64,000 nucleotides of DNA, from positions 628,477-692,476 of the forward strand of contig NZ_DS989904.1 in assembly GCF_000155595.1 (NCBI RefSeq), written 5' to 3'. Under the pieces are notes generated by a model, which saw nothing but the letters and a program-made list of their open reading frames with translations, made no database searches and was not told the origin of the DNA. The position numbers were made by a program, and so were the translations under genes. The DNA comes from Synechococcus sp. PCC 7335. Its GTDB lineage: Bacteria; Cyanobacteriota; Cyanobacteriia; Phormidesmidales; Phormidesmidaceae. Below, piece after piece: positions 38,995-47,887 of the stretch (its first letter is position 1; each line of letters starts with the position of its first letter).

Positions 38995-40479
38995 ATGAAG
39001 GAACTAGCCACCCAAAAGCTCCGTCACTATGCCCTTCAGCAAGAGCTGAGCCACAAAGCTGGTAGACGAACATTTTTAGCCAGAGATCTTTATACCAAAA
39101 CGCCCGCCATCGTCAAAATTCTTCAGTTCGATAGAGCGTTTGAATGGGATGCGCTAAAGCTGTTTCGAAGGGAAGCTGACATTCTTCAACAGTTGGATCA
39201 TTCCGCTATTCCTCAATACAAAGACAGCTTTGAAGCTGAAATCGATGGCGTGCATAGCTTTGTTCTCGTGCAAACCTATATTCCAGCGCCGTCACTGCAA
39301 AAGGTAGTCGAAACGGGCAAATTATTTTCCGAAGCGGAAGTCACTGCGATCGCCCAACAGCTCCTCACAACTCTGAGCTACTTGCATCAACAGCTACCCC
39401 CGGTTATCCACCGCGATCTTAAGCCTAGCAACATTCTTATTAGCGAACCTTCTCCTAGAGCTGCTGCTAAGACCGCAGATGTCATAGAAAGAAACGTCTA
39501 TCTAGTTGATTTTGGCGCTGTACAGGTCACCGCTAGTAAAAGCAGCGGTACAGTCACCGTCGTCGGCAGCTATGGCTACATGCCATTAGAACAGTTTTTA
39601 GGACAAACTACGCCTGTGTCAGATCTCTACAGTCTAGGAATGACATTGCTTTATTTAGTAACTGGTATGCATCCGTCAGAACTACCCCAAATAGATGGCC
39701 GCATTCAGATTGACCAAGTAGGTAGAACGGTAGGTCTAAGCAATTGGTTTATTCGTTGGCTATCGCAGATGAGCGCACCTTATTCGGATCAGCGCTTTGA
39801 GTCGGCTGCGATCGCCCTTTTAGCACTCAACTCCAAAGACGATGGGTCTGGCTGCTATTTTTCCCATCTGCGACCTGACTCGTCTCATCTGCATATCTAC
39901 CGCCAAAAAGACGAACTCAAGATTATCTCTAAATCATCGTCTCGAAACCCATACCTTGATTCATTAGGTTGCCTTCTCCTTACGCCTTTCTTGGTTTCAA
40001 TGGTAATTCCTTTCACAGGGACGCCTGCAGCGATCATTATTTTCTCTATCTTGAACGGAAGTATTCTGTTAGACGCTTTCCAGAGGCACCGGCAGGGCGC
40101 AAATGAATACAACGTGATATCTATCAGCCGCGCTTCAGGCATTTGTGTAGGAACGGCAAGAGGACATCACCACAGTCAATTGTCTGATATTAAGCCAATA
40201 TGCGTACCTTCTCCATTTAGCAGCATCAAGCTTTTAACTTATAACCCTGGCTATACCTTCACCCACTACTACAACAAGAAAAAGCTTACTGTCTCACCTA
40301 GTCACATTCATCTACCGCCCAAACTATCAATTCATGCAGAGAAGCAAGAATACTCTATCGAAGGCAAATCTCTTTCTAAAGCAGAACAGCTATGGATTGA
40401 CAAAGAACTAGACAGTTTTTTAGGGCTGCCTTTGCAAAGAATTCACCCTACTGGCCCAGGGAAAGTAGACCAGATGTAG
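38995..40479 (+). CDS. Membrane-bound Ser/Thr protein kinase, first of a tandem pair
   Basis: 494 residues. Hanks-type kinase (about 10-285): AGRRTFLARD loop, Lys in AIVKIL, Glu in FRREADIL, catalytic HRDLKPSN, VDFGAVQ, and the activation segment GSYGYMPLEQF. Hydrophobic segment(s) at about 322-362 anchor it to the membrane. The C-terminal 130 residues, with LLTYNPGYTF, LSIHAEKQEYSIEG and the end LDSFLGLPLQRIHP, form an unrecognised region shared with the next gene. All catalytic residues are present, so it should be active. It lies divergent from the NACHT gene. Confidence 0.92.
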   Translation: MKELATQKLRHYALQQELSHKAGRRTFLARDLYTKTPAIVKILQFDRAFEWDALKLFRREADILQQLDHSAIPQYKDSFEAEIDGVHSFVLVQTYIPAPSLQKVVETGKLFSEAEVTAIAQQLLTTLSYLHQQLPPVIHRDLKPSNILISEPSPRAAAKTADVIERNVYLVDFGAVQVTASKSSGTVTVVGSYGYMPLEQFLGQTTPVSDLYSLGMTLLYLVTGMHPSELPQIDGRIQIDQVGRTVGLSNWFIRWLSQMSAPYSDQRFESAAIALLALNSKDDGSGCYFSHLRPDSSHLHIYRQKDELKIISKSSSRNPYLDSLGCLLLTPFLVSMVIPFTGTPAAIIIFSILNGSILLDAFQRHRQGANEYNVISISRASGICVGTARGHHHSQLSDIKPICVPSPFSSIKLLTYNPGYTFTHYYNKKKLTVSPSHIHLPPKLSIHAEKQEYSIEGKSLSKAEQLWIDKELDSFLGLPLQRIHPTGPGKVDQM

Positions 40480-40574: not shown

Positions 40575-42155
40575 ATGAAAACTGTCATTCAAAAGATAGA
40601 ACAATATAGTCTACAAAAAGAGCTAAGTACGGAAGAAAGACGAAAGGCCGGTAGACAGACTTTCTTAGCAAGAGATACCAATACGCAAGAACCTGTTGTC
40701 GTCAAAATCATTCGGTTAGATCAAGCTATTCACACCGCCGATCAATGGGTAGAACTCAAGCTTTTTGAACGAGAAAGCAACATTCTGCAAACGTTAGATC
40801 ATCTAGCGCTACCAAAGTACAAAGACGCTTTTGAAACAGACGTTGAGGGCATTCGTAGCTTTGTGCTGGTGCAAAGCTATCTCGAAGCAGATTCTTTAGA
40901 AGCGCTTCTCCAATCAGGCAGACGATTTTCAGAAAGCGAAGTATTAGACATTGCTAAGCAACTGCTCACCACTTTGCACTATCTCCATATGCAAGTACCG
41001 CCAGTCGTCCATCGCGACATCAAACCCAGCAATATCTTGATCGGTTCATCTAAAGAGATTAGATCATCCAAGGATAGTGCTGACGATCACGTTGGTGATG
41101 TTTATTTAATTGACCTTGGCTCAATCCATACAGAGCTGACAAAAGAGAGTGACACCATTACCATTGTGGGCAGCTACGGCTATATCCCATTAGAACAATT
41201 CGCTGGACAGGCTGTTCCTGCTTCTGATCTATACAGCTTAGGGATGACTCTGATCTATCTGGTCACAGGTACTCATCCTGCTGATATGGCTCATATCAAC
41301 GGCAAAGTTCAGCTGCCTTCTCACTCTGTTCAACCTGCCTTCACTCGATGGTTAGAGAAAATGACTCATCCCAGCCTCAACCAGAGAATAGAGTCTGCCG
41401 AGCAAGCTCTGGCTATGCTGGAGGCAAAAGAACATAATCAGGGGCACTATCAGCATCTGAAGCCTGAAGGAACAGAAATAGTTGTAGAGAGAACGCGCGA
41501 TCGCTTACGAATTTCAATAGACAAACCCAAAAGTCGCTTACCCAGGCAGGCAGGAAATGGTGTTTTTGCCTTAACCTATATAGTTGCACTTTTCTATTTC
41601 CCCGTCCTACTCTTTAACATTCTGCCTCTGACTTTTGCTCTAAAGATAGGCATAGTTGTAGTCTCCTATGTTCCAGTCCTCCGTTTTATTGTTATGCCTC
41701 TATCTCTTGTCCTGAGGGCAGGCGTTGAGTCATCTTTAAGCTGTTACTTTAGAAGCCGACCAAACTCGAACCAGCAACAAACGATAGTTGAGATCGATCG
41801 CAAGCAAGGCATTCGTACAGGCACTCAAAGAAAAGACCGAACAGCCGTGGAGTGGGACCAGCGAACTTCTCGCTACGAGGCCCTCGACCTGTTGGCATAC
41901 AACCCTGGCTATAAGTTCAACAGCTACAAAGAAGGAGATAACACTGTTACGCAGAGCAAAGGGGGCGTCCCACCTGAACTATCCGTTCACGCAGGTACAC
42001 TCTCATATCCTATTGGTCACAGTCGTCTGTCCGCTGCCGAATTTTGGTGGCTTGGTCAAGAGCTCAGCGACTTCCTAGATCTAGAGCTACAAACCATCTA
42101 TCCCATGCCCATCGTCACCGTTGCCGCCACCAGCACAGGCGGGTGCGGCTGCTAA
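40575..42155 (+). CDS. Membrane-bound Ser/Thr protein kinase, second of a tandem pair
   Basis: 526 residues, a clear paralogue of the upstream kinase, 95 bp away. Kinase domain has VVVKII, HRDIKPSN and GSYGYIPLEQF, but the metal-binding DFG is DLG (IDLGSIH), a tolerated change that keeps the Asp. A broad hydrophobic region at about 329-379 is membrane. The shared C-terminal region has LLAYNPGYKF, LSVHAGTLSYPIG and LSDFLDLELQTIYP. It ends in a Gly/Cys tail, STGGCGC, absent from the first kinase; a metal-binding or modified tail is possible. The pair probably arose by duplication and diverged. Confidence 0.92.
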   Translation: MKTVIQKIEQYSLQKELSTEERRKAGRQTFLARDTNTQEPVVVKIIRLDQAIHTADQWVELKLFERESNILQTLDHLALPKYKDAFETDVEGIRSFVLVQSYLEADSLEALLQSGRRFSESEVLDIAKQLLTTLHYLHMQVPPVVHRDIKPSNILIGSSKEIRSSKDSADDHVGDVYLIDLGSIHTELTKESDTITIVGSYGYIPLEQFAGQAVPASDLYSLGMTLIYLVTGTHPADMAHINGKVQLPSHSVQPAFTRWLEKMTHPSLNQRIESAEQALAMLEAKEHNQGHYQHLKPEGTEIVVERTRDRLRISIDKPKSRLPRQAGNGVFALTYIVALFYFPVLLFNILPLTFALKIGIVVVSYVPVLRFIVMPLSLVLRAGVESSLSCYFRSRPNSNQQQTIVEIDRKQGIRTGTQRKDRTAVEWDQRTSRYEALDLLAYNPGYKFNSYKEGDNTVTQSKGGVPPELSVHAGTLSYPIGHSRLSAAEFWWLGQELSDFLDLELQTIYPMPIVTVAATSTGGCGC

Positions 42156-42950: not shown

Positions 42951-43541
42951 CTAAGAATCTAGTTCAGAAATTGCGTATCTAGCCGCCGCCAAGCTTAATT
43001 TAGCTTGTTCAATTGCCGATAAGTCTGCCCAGTTGGCCTGACGTACCGACAAGATAGTCGCTTCTACAAATTCATCAGCGCTACTGCCACGCATTGCTAA
43101 TGCCATCGGTCTAGCAACCACTCGCAGGTCTGCTTCTGCTACATCACTCAAACAGTCTTGCACACAGCCGATCATCTGCTTCATCATCGGCTGACCGCTA
43201 CTAGCCATCTGCTGTGCCTTTTCTGCAATTATCGCTAGCAGATCAGCGGGCAGTCGCTGTGCAAATTTCTGCTGTAGCCGAACCAGCAAACTATTTTCCA
43301 CGCCGCTCCACACGCTATCGAGCTGAGCTGACAGGCTTTCCCAACCTTGCGCCGCTTCTGCGTCAGAAATTTCTAATAACGCGCCAGCAGCCGAGAGTTT
43401 CTGCTCGTACTCAGCGGCTATCTCTACCGCTACCCAAGGCGAACTTTGCTCCGGATCCAAAATGGTTTGTAGCAGTTCAGACTCAGTAGTAGATGGGGTT
43501 GACTTATCCATATCGCCGGGAGATGAAGATACATGGGTCAT
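42951..43541 (-). CDS. Helical protein of unknown function downstream of CHAT-FHA
   Basis: 196 residues, predicted soluble and mostly helical, Ala/Gln/Leu-rich, acidic, starting with a Ser/Thr/Pro-rich tail (about 1-25) that could be a kinase substrate. Segments such as MIGCVQDCLSDVAEADLRVVARPMALAMRG (part: DLRVVARPMALAMRG) look conserved in style, but I recognise no family. It lies 152 bp after the CHAT-FHA gene on the same strand and could be part of the PP2C-CHAT unit. Confidence 0.65.
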   Translation of the reverse strand: MTHVSSSPGDMDKSTPSTTESELLQTILDPEQSSPWVAVEIAAEYEQKLSAAGALLEISDAEAAQGWESLSAQLDSVWSGVENSLLVRLQQKFAQRLPADLLAIIAEKAQQMASSGQPMMKQMIGCVQDCLSDVAEADLRVVARPMALAMRGSSADEFVEATILSVRQANWADLSAIEQAKLSLAAARYAISELDS

Positions 43542-43693: not shown

Positions 43694-45316
43694 CTAAGAC
43701 TCGATGACAAATTCTAGAAGTTGACCGTCAGACTGACTGCCAAATCGAATTTGAGTGCCAGGACGTAGAGCAACTTCCTGGCGATGAACTTCTTGCCAGC
43801 TGCCGTCTCGTCGATAAAATGTACCGTAGCGAGAGTTGTCTCGAAGGAAGTAAGCCATCGCCAAACCGTCACTAGCCTGCTGCCGACGATGAAAAATCTC
43901 AGCATGGCTACTAGATACCCATGGATCAGAAATAACTAGATCGTTTAGTCCTGGCTTACGGCCGATGCGCATAACGTCACTGTAGATTGGCCAGACTTTC
44001 TTAGGATCATCGGCATCTCTGAGCATGGCCTGCCGAGCGGGTAGCCGAAAAGCGGTGTGCTGATTGATCTGGGTGGTTTGTTCGGAGAGTAACAGCTTGC
44101 CGTCAAAGTCAGGGTGCATGTAGAGGACAGGTAATGTCCAGGCTGGCTGATTGAAATGATAGAGGGTAAGCAGGTGCTGGCGAGCGATCGCAACTGCCTC
44201 ATCCACCGCCATCCGCTCTGCTAATGCCTGAGCTAATGCCTGAATAAAGCTAACAGCCTCTTCATCAGCAATCGAATCCCGCATGGCAATTACAGCTGGC
44301 AGCCCGTGATGCAATAAGACCTCAGCTAAACTGCTCCGAGGCAGCGATCGCGCCTGGCTTTCTTCTGGTTGTGCTCCCCAACAGGTATTGAATACGGCTA
44401 GCCGCACCTTCGCCCTTAGCAACACTTGCGATAGCTCAGTACCACTTAAGGTCGTATCCGATAAAAACAGTAGACCCCCATCTGGTCCTGGCATCCCATG
44501 CCCCGAATAGAAAAAGACGTTGTAGCTACCTGTTTCTAGCGCATTCGATAGTTCGACGGCGCTGGGCTGCACTAACATATCCACCCGCCGCCGAGCTGTC
44601 GGACGCAGATTCAAATGACTGTTTTTCTCTAGAATCTTTTTTAGCAGCGCTGCTTCTTGATCTAGCTTGAGCTGGCCAGCTGTGGATCTTTCTTCAGCGT
44701 CGTTTGGACTGTCTTTTCCTAAGACCAACAAAATCCTTAGCGCTCGATCCAACGGTCTTGCTTCTAACGAATCAACATCGCTGCTAGTCCGGCTAAATAG
44801 AATCTTGCGCTTCAGTGAGAGGGCCCGGCTACCCGCTTGCCTCTGCATAATTTCCCAGGGCAGCGATATCAATTCTGGATCGCGAATCTCTAGGCGCAAT
44901 CGCAGCGGTAAATCTTGACCAATCGCAATCCCTTGCGCCCGTTCTAGGCTACTTTTGACAGGCCCTGAAAACAACCACTGCCAAAGATTCATGCCTAGAT
45001 GTTGCATGTAGCGACTGCTGTAGCTGGCCGGTTGATTCGTGACAGGAGCAACCGAGTTTGCGGTCGATAGATCGCCTTCGTTCAAGAACTGAGGAATATA
45101 GGCCGAAGGAATATGCGGCACCTGAGGTAGATTCCGTAGTGAAAAAACGGATTGCCAGCTCTGCCAGGCATCGGCTAGCTGCGGGCTCCAGTCACAGTCG
45201 TAGTGAACATGACCGCTAGGGTGGGGCGATCGCAGCACCCAAATAGCAAAGCGATCGCGCTGTAACCGTAGACTATCTACTGCGACCCACAGGCCTAAAG
45301 CATCCTGACGTGCCAT
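43694..45316 (-). CDS. CHAT protease - FHA domain protein
   Basis: 540 residues. The caspase-like CHAT domain (about 120-400) has the catalytic His in FYSGHGMPGPDGG (about 273) and the catalytic Cys in FNTCWGAQ (about 309), followed by GLPAVIAMRDSIADEEAV. The C-terminal FHA domain (about 440-540) has MRIGRKPGLNDLVISDP and SSSHAEIF, the phosphothreonine-binding Arg, Ser and His set. A protease whose reader domain recognises phospho-Thr is suggested. Its ATG overlaps the stop of the upstream PP2C gene (TGATG), showing translational coupling. Targets are unknown. Confidence 0.92.
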   Translation of the reverse strand: MARQDALGLWVAVDSLRLQRDRFAIWVLRSPHPSGHVHYDCDWSPQLADAWQSWQSVFSLRNLPQVPHIPSAYIPQFLNEGDLSTANSVAPVTNQPASYSSRYMQHLGMNLWQWLFSGPVKSSLERAQGIAIGQDLPLRLRLEIRDPELISLPWEIMQRQAGSRALSLKRKILFSRTSSDVDSLEARPLDRALRILLVLGKDSPNDAEERSTAGQLKLDQEAALLKKILEKNSHLNLRPTARRRVDMLVQPSAVELSNALETGSYNVFFYSGHGMPGPDGGLLFLSDTTLSGTELSQVLLRAKVRLAVFNTCWGAQPEESQARSLPRSSLAEVLLHHGLPAVIAMRDSIADEEAVSFIQALAQALAERMAVDEAVAIARQHLLTLYHFNQPAWTLPVLYMHPDFDGKLLLSEQTTQINQHTAFRLPARQAMLRDADDPKKVWPIYSDVMRIGRKPGLNDLVISDPWVSSSHAEIFHRRQQASDGLAMAYFLRDNSRYGTFYRRDGSWQEVHRQEVALRPGTQIRFGSQSDGQLLEFVIES

Positions 45317-47421
45317 CAGTTACAACTTCCTATCTGTTCAGATTGCAAATCGGTAATAGGCTCTGCAAAGCGAGACTGACGAATGCGTAGATAGTCGCCT
45401 ACCACAAAGTCAATGCTGGCAATAGGAGACTCTGGAACAGGGAGGATGGACGGTCCAGCATCGGCATTGCTAGTCTCAGCAGGCGGTTCATCGGGGCTCG
45501 CAGGCAGTAGGTACCGCCTTAGACCAGGCAGTAGGGTGTAAGCTAACGCGGCCAAAACACCTAGCAGCAAAACAATCAGCCCGACCTTCTGTAGGATGAC
45601 CTGGCTAGTCTTTCGATTTAGAGCAGCGCCTTCTACAGGAGATGATTCAGCAGGCGGCTGAGAAGATACCGATCGAGGCTCTAGCCGCTTGGTGATTGGC
45701 TGCTCAAGCTGCATTTGGCTAGAGTGAGGATGAGGCAAAGCAACCGTCTCGCCTGGCGCGTGCGCTGCCTTTGGCTGGGTAGCTAAGGTGGTCGGAACCA
45801 TTCGCTCAGAGTTATGTAGAACCCGAGCAGCTAGCAGTCCTACGGTGACATTGTCATGACCGTTATACTCGTTGGCTAGTGAAACCAACTGCTGAGCGAC
45901 CTCGTCTACTTTTTTCCCTCCATCGACTAGAGGCTTCAGTACGCTGACCCAAAATTGCTCTACGCGATCGCTATCGCTCAATCCATCCGAACACAGTAGA
46001 AAGACACAGCTTTCGTCAAGCACAAACCGCTGCACCGTTGGCCTCAACATCTTTGAGGGACCCATACCAAGCGCTTGAACTAGCGACCCGGCGCCCGGCT
46101 GAATCAGCATTTCTCGATAAAGGCTGCCGCCTAGACGAACTTGCCTAGAGGCGACATCGTCATCGAGGGTGACCTGCTGGCAGCTATGCTGGCTGATCCG
46201 ATAGGCTCGGCTGTCGCCAAGATGAGCAATATAGACCTCTGCGCCTCTAATAAGTGCTAAAACTAGAGTCGTGCCCATGCGATTGCGAGCTTGCCGGTGC
46301 GCTTGATCATTCTGGGCTGAAATCTCGTCATTCGCAGCGCAGATTGCCTGTTCAATCGCCAGCATAATCTCTATCGAGCTGAGATCTGTACTATCGGATG
46401 ACAGCGCGGATGACATGATTGGCGCTAGCTGGACCTTGATGGTTGCGATCGCCAATTTGGAAGCGATATCCCCACCCTGATGTCCGCCGATACCATCACA
46501 GACAATCAGCAGTTGCGGCGCAGCTGTTGTTTGGTCGCTCTTCAACGTCAAACTGGTTCCACTTTCTGGGAAACAGGCGTCCTCGTTGCGCTTTCGAGTA
46601 GGCCCTTGGTCAGTATAGACGGCCAAGTCATAGGCGACGCTCTGTTCTTCGGCGCAGATTGTGATCGCTAGCGCTAACTGGTCGCATAGCTGCTGAGCAT
46701 TGAGCTGCCCCTGCTCTAGGCAATCACACAGCTCGGCTAAAAAAGCACGCACAGATAGATGAGCGGTTGTCACCAAGGGCTGCCAGGTATGGGCCAAACT
46801 CACCAGTGTGGGTGCGCCTGATCCATCTTGATCTAGCGCTAAGCATCCTAAGTCGGCTGTGAGTTCTAGCAACCGCACCACCGATCCATCCACTCGCACC
46901 AGATGGTCGTTTAGTAGCGTCGCCGCTACCCCCTCATCTTGGAAACTTTCCCACATCTGAGCAATCTGCCATAGCCAACTTAGCTGCCGTAGAGGAGGCG
47001 CATTGGTCCAGGCTGTCGCTAGCGTCGGCAAAAGCATAGGAGTGCTGACATTAGCAGTCGTCGAGTCCGCCATTGAGAAGGCACTTGACTCCAACAGCAG
47101 CACCGGATCGCCTTTTGACGTTTCGAAAGCAGCGTATAGTCGCGGCACATGGAGTGGATAGACGGACAAGTACAAGTAGGGCAGCGCCATCCCCGAAATG
47201 TCTACTGGCGCTTCGGGGACAAGACCGGGCTTTGTGTCTAAAAAAATGCGATCATGCTTTAGCAGATAGCGATTATTCAGCATTGCCCCTGGCTTCAACG
47301 TAGCCAACGTTTCGCCAGCCCCCCACAAATAGTAATGAGGCAGCGCCGAAGAGCAAACCCGGCAGTCAACGGCCTCCTCAGAATTATCCGTATTACAGTT
47401 AGGATTGGGGCAATTAATCAC
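45316..47421 (-). CDS. Zinc ribbon - pseudokinase-like - PP2C phosphatase - membrane protein
   Basis: 701 residues. Residues 1-30 hold a zinc ribbon (CPNPNC ... CRVCSSAL). Residues about 45-265 lack kinase motifs but follow the layout of a degenerate kinase: MLNNRYLL, then LSWLWQIAQMWESF, then LLNDHLVRVDGSVVRLLEL in place of the catalytic and DFG segments. PP2C domain (about 275-540): metal residues in RNEDAC, CDGIGGHQGGD, GDSRAYR, CSDGLSDSD and HDNVTV are all present, so it should be active. A membrane helix lies at about 610-632, followed by a Pro-rich tail. It is the first gene of the pair with CHAT-FHA. Confidence 0.9.
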   Translation of the reverse strand: MINCPNPNCNTDNSEEAVDCRVCSSALPHYYLWGAGETLATLKPGAMLNNRYLLKHDRIFLDTKPGLVPEAPVDISGMALPYLYLSVYPLHVPRLYAAFETSKGDPVLLLESSAFSMADSTTANVSTPMLLPTLATAWTNAPPLRQLSWLWQIAQMWESFQDEGVAATLLNDHLVRVDGSVVRLLELTADLGCLALDQDGSGAPTLVSLAHTWQPLVTTAHLSVRAFLAELCDCLEQGQLNAQQLCDQLALAITICAEEQSVAYDLAVYTDQGPTRKRNEDACFPESGTSLTLKSDQTTAAPQLLIVCDGIGGHQGGDIASKLAIATIKVQLAPIMSSALSSDSTDLSSIEIMLAIEQAICAANDEISAQNDQAHRQARNRMGTTLVLALIRGAEVYIAHLGDSRAYRISQHSCQQVTLDDDVASRQVRLGGSLYREMLIQPGAGSLVQALGMGPSKMLRPTVQRFVLDESCVFLLCSDGLSDSDRVEQFWVSVLKPLVDGGKKVDEVAQQLVSLANEYNGHDNVTVGLLAARVLHNSERMVPTTLATQPKAAHAPGETVALPHPHSSQMQLEQPITKRLEPRSVSSQPPAESSPVEGAALNRKTSQVILQKVGLIVLLLGVLAALAYTLLPGLRRYLLPASPDEPPAETSNADAGPSILPVPESPIASIDFVVGDYLRIRQSRFAEPITDLQSEQIGSCN

Positions 47422-47509: not shown

Positions 47510-47887
47510 CTACTTGGCCGCTGGTTCTATAGACGCATCTTGATCAGATAGTGGTTCATCCACAACTCTAGGTAAGCCCATGCTGTAATTGAGCACACGG
47601 CTCTGCAAGTTATAGCTGATTTCACCGGACTGTAGCAGCGCCCGAACAAAATGCTCTAGATCAGAGCCAATTCGCCGCAAATTGTAGTCCGTCAGTGCTT
47701 CTCCAGCGTAATCATCAACCATCCGATCAAACTCGCGATAGACCTTCTGTAGGGCTTCATCGCTCCAGTTAAACTCGTTTTCAGGATCGACATCTATCGT
47801 CAGTTGCTGATCGCTAGGAACAATCTCGTTGTTCTGAATTGTGGCCGCATAGATCAAAATGTGGCGAGTAGTGGATTTTAGCAGCAT
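47510..47887 (-). CDS. ndhM: NAD(P)H-quinone oxidoreductase subunit M (NdhM)
   Basis: 125 residues, the usual size. NdhM is an oxygenic-photosynthesis-specific peripheral-arm subunit of NDH-1, which runs cyclic electron flow and CO2 uptake at the thylakoid. Recognised by LLKSTTRHILIYAATIQNNE (part), ENEFNWSDEALQKVY and NYSMGLPRV. Single gene upstream of the plus-strand phosphatase; ATG at 47887. Confidence 0.93.
   Translation of the reverse strand: MLLKSTTRHILIYAATIQNNEIVPSDQQLTIDVDPENEFNWSDEALQKVYREFDRMVDDYAGEALTDYNLRRIGSDLEHFVRALLQSGEISYNLQSRVLNYSMGLPRVVDEPLSDQDASIEPAAK

Follow-up and report, generated by a model that had tools for sequence, protein, structure and literature searches.

A CHAT-FHA protein and its near-obligate partner orf196 in cyanobacteria: a candidate HetF-type, phosphothreonine-docked protease module beside a PP2C phosphatase

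A gene for a fused CHAT-FHA protein and the gene directly downstream of it, orf196, are kept together in about half of the sampled cyanobacterial genomes, often with a PP2C-type phosphatase gene adjacent to them. We identified this cluster in a window comprising the whole 64,000-nucleotide stretch of DNA that was analysed (Table 1). In our best explanation, which rests on sequence comparison and to which we give about an even chance, these genes would constitute a vertically inherited housekeeping module composed of a HetF-type, FHA-docked protease, a PP2C eraser, and orf196 as a regulator or substrate. The first-pass annotation of this DNA was built on the phosphatase, CHAT-FHA and two kinases, and overlooked both orf196 and the ndhM gene directly upstream of PP2C. 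The best-known CHAT proteases are immune effectors, with HetF known as a developmental regulator. If our explanation is true, it would link Ser/Thr kinase signalling with caspase-like proteolysis in the everyday physiology of bacteria, and the unnamed orf196 protein family would acquire a function.

Table 1. Positions in the window of the CHAT-FHA cluster and the genes around it.
Feature	Position	Strand	Description
Ser/Thr kinase A	38995-40479	+	HRD, DFG; Pfam Pkinase E 4e-31
Ser/Thr kinase B	40575-42155	+	HRD, DLG; Pfam Pkinase E 3e-29
orf196	42951-43541	-	196 aa; downstream of CHAT-FHA
CHAT-FHA	43694-45316	-	540 aa; Pfam CHAT and FHA
PP2C-type Ser/Thr phosphatase	45316-47421	-	701 aa; GTG start; Pfam PP2C_2
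ndhM (NDH-1 subunit M)	47510-47887	-	directly upstream of the PP2C gene; Pfam NdhM E 2e-52

The PP2C and CHAT-FHA reading frames, both on the minus strand, overlap at ...AACTGATGGCA, where a single A is common to the TGA stop codon of the former and the ATG start codon of the latter; the TGATG stop/start described in the first-pass annotation was thereby confirmed. This overlap was found in five genomes, all of this genus (that of the window, G001, G002, G003 and G006), and outside the genus the gap between the two genes is mostly 43–150 bases, with a maximum of 363 where both genes are whole. Because TGATG was seen only in the genus and adjacency reaches further, coupling through the overlap is a trait of the genus and the adjacency is older. 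Scans for promoters and terminators did no better than with shuffled sequences. The organism is a cyanobacterium near Phormidesmis/Leptolyngbya; among named relatives the nearest is Cf. Phormidesmis sp. LEGE 11477, whose CHAT-FHA protein is 91% identical. The location of ndhM next to PP2C is probably positional and lies outside the mechanism considered here.

The tightest association in the cluster is that of CHAT-FHA with orf196. Among 212 cyanobacterial genomes of the class, each at least 97% complete, orf196 was present in 106, CHAT-FHA in 106, and both in 105. The 105 genomes, out of 107 having either gene, comprise 86 in which the two are adjacent on one strand, with 81–740 bases between the matches, and 19 in which they are unlinked and yet both are kept. 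In one of the two exceptions (G024) the contig ends beside CHAT-FHA, and in the other (G069) an FHA remnant of CHAT-FHA lies between an intact PP2C gene and an intact orf196 (L209:5733-6445), reflecting either recent decay or an assembly fault. Presence and absence follow families, which implies few independent gains and losses, and the Fisher value of 6e-59 for this co-occurrence is therefore not a calibrated probability. When loci were counted, orf196 was located downstream of CHAT-FHA in 99 of 112. The order is swapped at one locus (L175:7072-9596), with orf196 preceding CHAT-FHA in the same orientation.

A second neighbour served as a control for linkage. A gene encoding an FHA-PrsW intramembrane protease, convergent to the cluster, adjoins it in 31 of 112 loci. 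We rejected FHA-PrsW as a further partner, as just 17 of 58 genomes have it and four of these lack CHAT-FHA; a search of the window's own genome returned no match. FHA-PrsW is thus linked without co-occurring, indicating that linkage alone does not yield the pattern seen with orf196. As an observation in its own right, FHA-PrsW is a second FHA-protease fusion beside CHAT-FHA (L209:7177-8532 and about 30 other loci, L087:9244-10629 among them, in many families), and is often followed by a peptide deformylase gene.

The orf196 protein was modelled as all-helical, and Arg, Pro, Trp, Leu and Asp make up most of its invariant positions. Searches of Pfam, NCBIfam and PDB revealed no relatives, and the fold search gave no PDB match below E 1. 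We considered orf196 as the phosphothreonine ligand of the FHA domain; the protein has no conserved Thr, and it is therefore probably not the ligand itself.

The CHAT-FHA protein begins with a beta region of about 100 residues, which is followed by a HetF-type CHAT domain (residues 107–388, PF12770, E 1e-21, 78 bits against a Pfam cut-off of 24) and a C-terminal FHA domain (residues 450–526, E 3e-11, 43.9 bits against a cut-off of 20.7). The CHAT His and Cys residues noted in the first-pass annotation, His273 and Cys312, are invariant in 48 of 48 CHAT-FHA orthologs, where they are flanked by GHG and N-x-C-W-G. In HetF they align with the motifs AGHS and N-S-C, and the genome's other CHAT proteins align as well. 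The domain score and these motifs assign the predicted protein to the CHAT protease superfamily. The FHA domain aligns with phosphopeptide-binding FHA domains, including that of Nibrin, with which it shares the variant YGT at the position where many FHA domains carry NGT. Arg453 is conserved in 45 of 47 orthologs, Ser468 in 46 of 46 and His471 in 45 of 46, and the fold together with these residues fits a phosphothreonine reader. The AlphaFold model of the protein (pLDDT 76.5) was matched by Foldseek to Craspase TPR-CHAT, separase, SAVED-CHAT and FHA structures. Given the conserved pairing with PP2C and the conserved catalytic and phospho-binding residues, the phosphothreonine-gated protease proposed earlier is a sound inference.

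The closest CHAT sequence family is HetF of Anabaena/Nostoc, which is likewise cyanobacterial, is present in one copy per genome and has the same His/Cys motifs. The HetF model NF045509 matched CHAT-FHA with E 6e-52 over residues 104–418, at 177 bits against a cut-off of 1200, and the match covers HetF positions 70–393 of 836, so that neither by score nor by full-length architecture is CHAT-FHA a HetF equivalog. CHAT-FHA forms a clade of its own (98/95) with HetF as the nearest family, and the two coexist in most of the genomes. Whereas CHAT-FHA carries an FHA domain, HetF has TM and TPR regions without one (PMC8406250). HetF has been described as a protease, with PatU3 reported as the protein that it cuts (review PMC12288457). 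Mutating the conserved active site of HetF abolished function, so that this site is required (PMC8406250). By analogy with the reported HetF protease, CHAT-FHA would be a protease and orf196 its regulator or substrate.

The CHAT/caspase-like fold is also common to Craspase TPR-CHAT (Csx29), SAVED-CHAT and separase, as the Foldseek matches indicate. RNA, cyclic nucleotide filaments or securin act as the switches of these proteins. In CHAT-FHA, by contrast, the sensor is the FHA domain, the gene is vertically inherited, and the cluster contains no CRISPR or CBASS gene. Searches of the open-access literature found no paper in which the terms for CHAT and FHA domains occur together. The parts are of known kinds; the CHAT-FHA fusion, the PP2C gene next to it and the near-obligate partner orf196 appear to be undescribed.

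The phosphatase consists of a 4-Cys zinc ribbon, a region of about 230 residues, the PP2C domain (about 270–530, with the PP2C_2 match at 299–513, E 4e-14, over the curated Pfam cut-off), one membrane helix and a C-terminal tail. The metal residues and the zinc ribbon had both been recognized at first pass, and both are borne out by conservation: Asp281, Asp309, Gly310, Asp479 and Asp523 are all invariant in 44 of 44 sequences, and Cys4, Cys9, Cys20 and Cys23 in the 21 sequences compared. The protein thus has the metal-binding Asp and Gly residues of PP2C Ser/Thr phosphatases and is predicted to be one. It shares the PP2C domain match with PRK14559, a cyanobacterial Ser/Thr phosphatase family, yet the match is partial (E 3e-77) and scores under the family cut-off (261 against 374 bits). 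The same genomes also carry a more distant paralog of about 600–700 aa. The region of about 230 residues between the zinc ribbon and the PP2C domain (window 46642-47300, minus strand) is conserved and matches no known family. A pseudokinase, suspected in the N-terminal region from a degenerate-kinase-like pattern, was not confirmed; profile searches matched the zinc ribbon alone.

In the mechanism that we propose, CHAT-FHA would be a HetF-type protease with a working His/Cys dyad, and its FHA domain would dock it on a phosphothreonine-bearing protein, with phosphorylation setting where or when cutting occurs. The membrane-anchored PP2C would strip such phosphates and thereby reset the switch. 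The orf196 protein would be a dedicated partner: a regulator that keeps the protease in check or switches it on, or else its principal substrate, the part that PatU3 plays for HetF. We tentatively suggest a more specific version, in which CHAT-FHA and orf196 would be a protease-partner pair parallel to HetF-PatU3, and phosphothreonine docking together with PP2C would control the cleavage of either orf196 or a bound target, as part of a core process, for example growth or division. The gene pairs of the cluster would then be direct candidates for knock-out.

The distribution of the phosphatase bears on whether it belongs to this module. Of the 58 genomes in the relatives set, 49 have CHAT-FHA, and three further matches are accounted for by HetF, a separate gene. 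PP2C lies directly upstream of CHAT-FHA in 95 of 121 loci, and ndhM precedes PP2C in 83 of 121; these are the loci with enough upstream sequence, and they are partly redundant, since named contigs overlap the G-numbered genomes. Almost every genome of the family has its best PP2C match immediately upstream of CHAT-FHA in the same orientation, as do many other families (adjacency in f1, f4, f8, f15, f17, f18, f24, f25, f28, f32 and f37), and the pairing noted at this one locus in the first-pass annotation is accordingly conserved well beyond the genus. It is nevertheless conceivable, if rather unlikely, that the functional unit comprises only CHAT-FHA and orf196, with PP2C travelling with the ndhM region and acting on other proteins. 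The near-perfect co-occurrence of CHAT-FHA and orf196, maintained even when they are unlinked, is in keeping with such a two-gene unit. The same is true of PP2C relatives of similar extent in genomes without CHAT-FHA (G049, G052 and G053), of the families in which PP2C and CHAT-FHA are unlinked (f3, f6, f7, f9, f14 and f22), and of G042, in which PP2C remains beside ndhM and CHAT-FHA is elsewhere. Because it occurs without CHAT-FHA and is unlinked in several families, PP2C may be less a partner than a neighbour; it is the weaker partner, and orf196 is tied more tightly to CHAT-FHA. However, PP2C and FHA belong to one phosphothreonine chemistry, and PP2C is adjacent in many families and translationally coupled in the genus. 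Moreover, evolutionary rates covary with those of CHAT-FHA beyond ndhM, with partial r of 0.75 for orf196 and 0.71 for PP2C in 20 genomes, which agrees with a shared function and may also reflect common history.

Two other readings bear on the protease and on the kinases. CHAT-FHA might be a non-catalytic scaffold, in which FHA serves as an adaptor and the CHAT fold mediates protein contact. The catalytic loops, modelled at moderate to low confidence (mean pLDDT 73 for the His273 block and 50 for the Cys312 block), would allow for this, but the invariance of His and Cys in their motifs and their alignment with HetF, reported as proteolytic, make a scaffold improbable. We consider it very improbable that the two neighbouring kinases, PP2C and CHAT-FHA form a closed circuit, possibly a conflict-system effector, as the first-pass annotation had outlined. 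The chemistry of kinase, FHA and PP2C fits such a circuit, and the kinases are located near CHAT-FHA both here and in LEGE 11477. The annotation placed two kinases within 2 kb on the opposite strand; the strand is correct for both, but downstream of CHAT-FHA they come no closer than 1.5 and 3.2 kb, and only one is within 2 kb. Kinases A and B recur only in LEGE 11477 (L040 and L099 are one locus seen twice), neither lay near any other CHAT-FHA locus examined, and the genome contains 15 kinase and 8 FHA matches. Since only the closest relative keeps them beside the cluster, a role as cognate kinases is unlikely, and we rejected it. Two Ser/Thr kinases and a phosphatase also lie together in the KKP kinase-kinase-phosphatase module of Pf prophages (PMC11341870); here, however, the kinases are not conserved with PP2C, the protease and orf196 are additional, and no prophage setting was seen.

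The conflict-system framing is likewise not supported. CHAT-FHA is single-copy per genome, its gene order is kept across families, and no full-length relative was found on plasmids (none among 72,556). In the defence library the only match, a weak one, was to SAVED_CHAT (E 0.001), and there were no defence partners; on these grounds an anti-phage or conflict CHAT system was rejected. Owing to its single copy and stable gene order, the CHAT-FHA cluster looks like a housekeeping regulator and not a conflict system. Separately, the window's genome was observed to contain 18 CHAT matches, nine of which lie at 3.13–3.32 Mb (G000 contig C1, about 3129577-3322724) and make up a large CHAT cluster.
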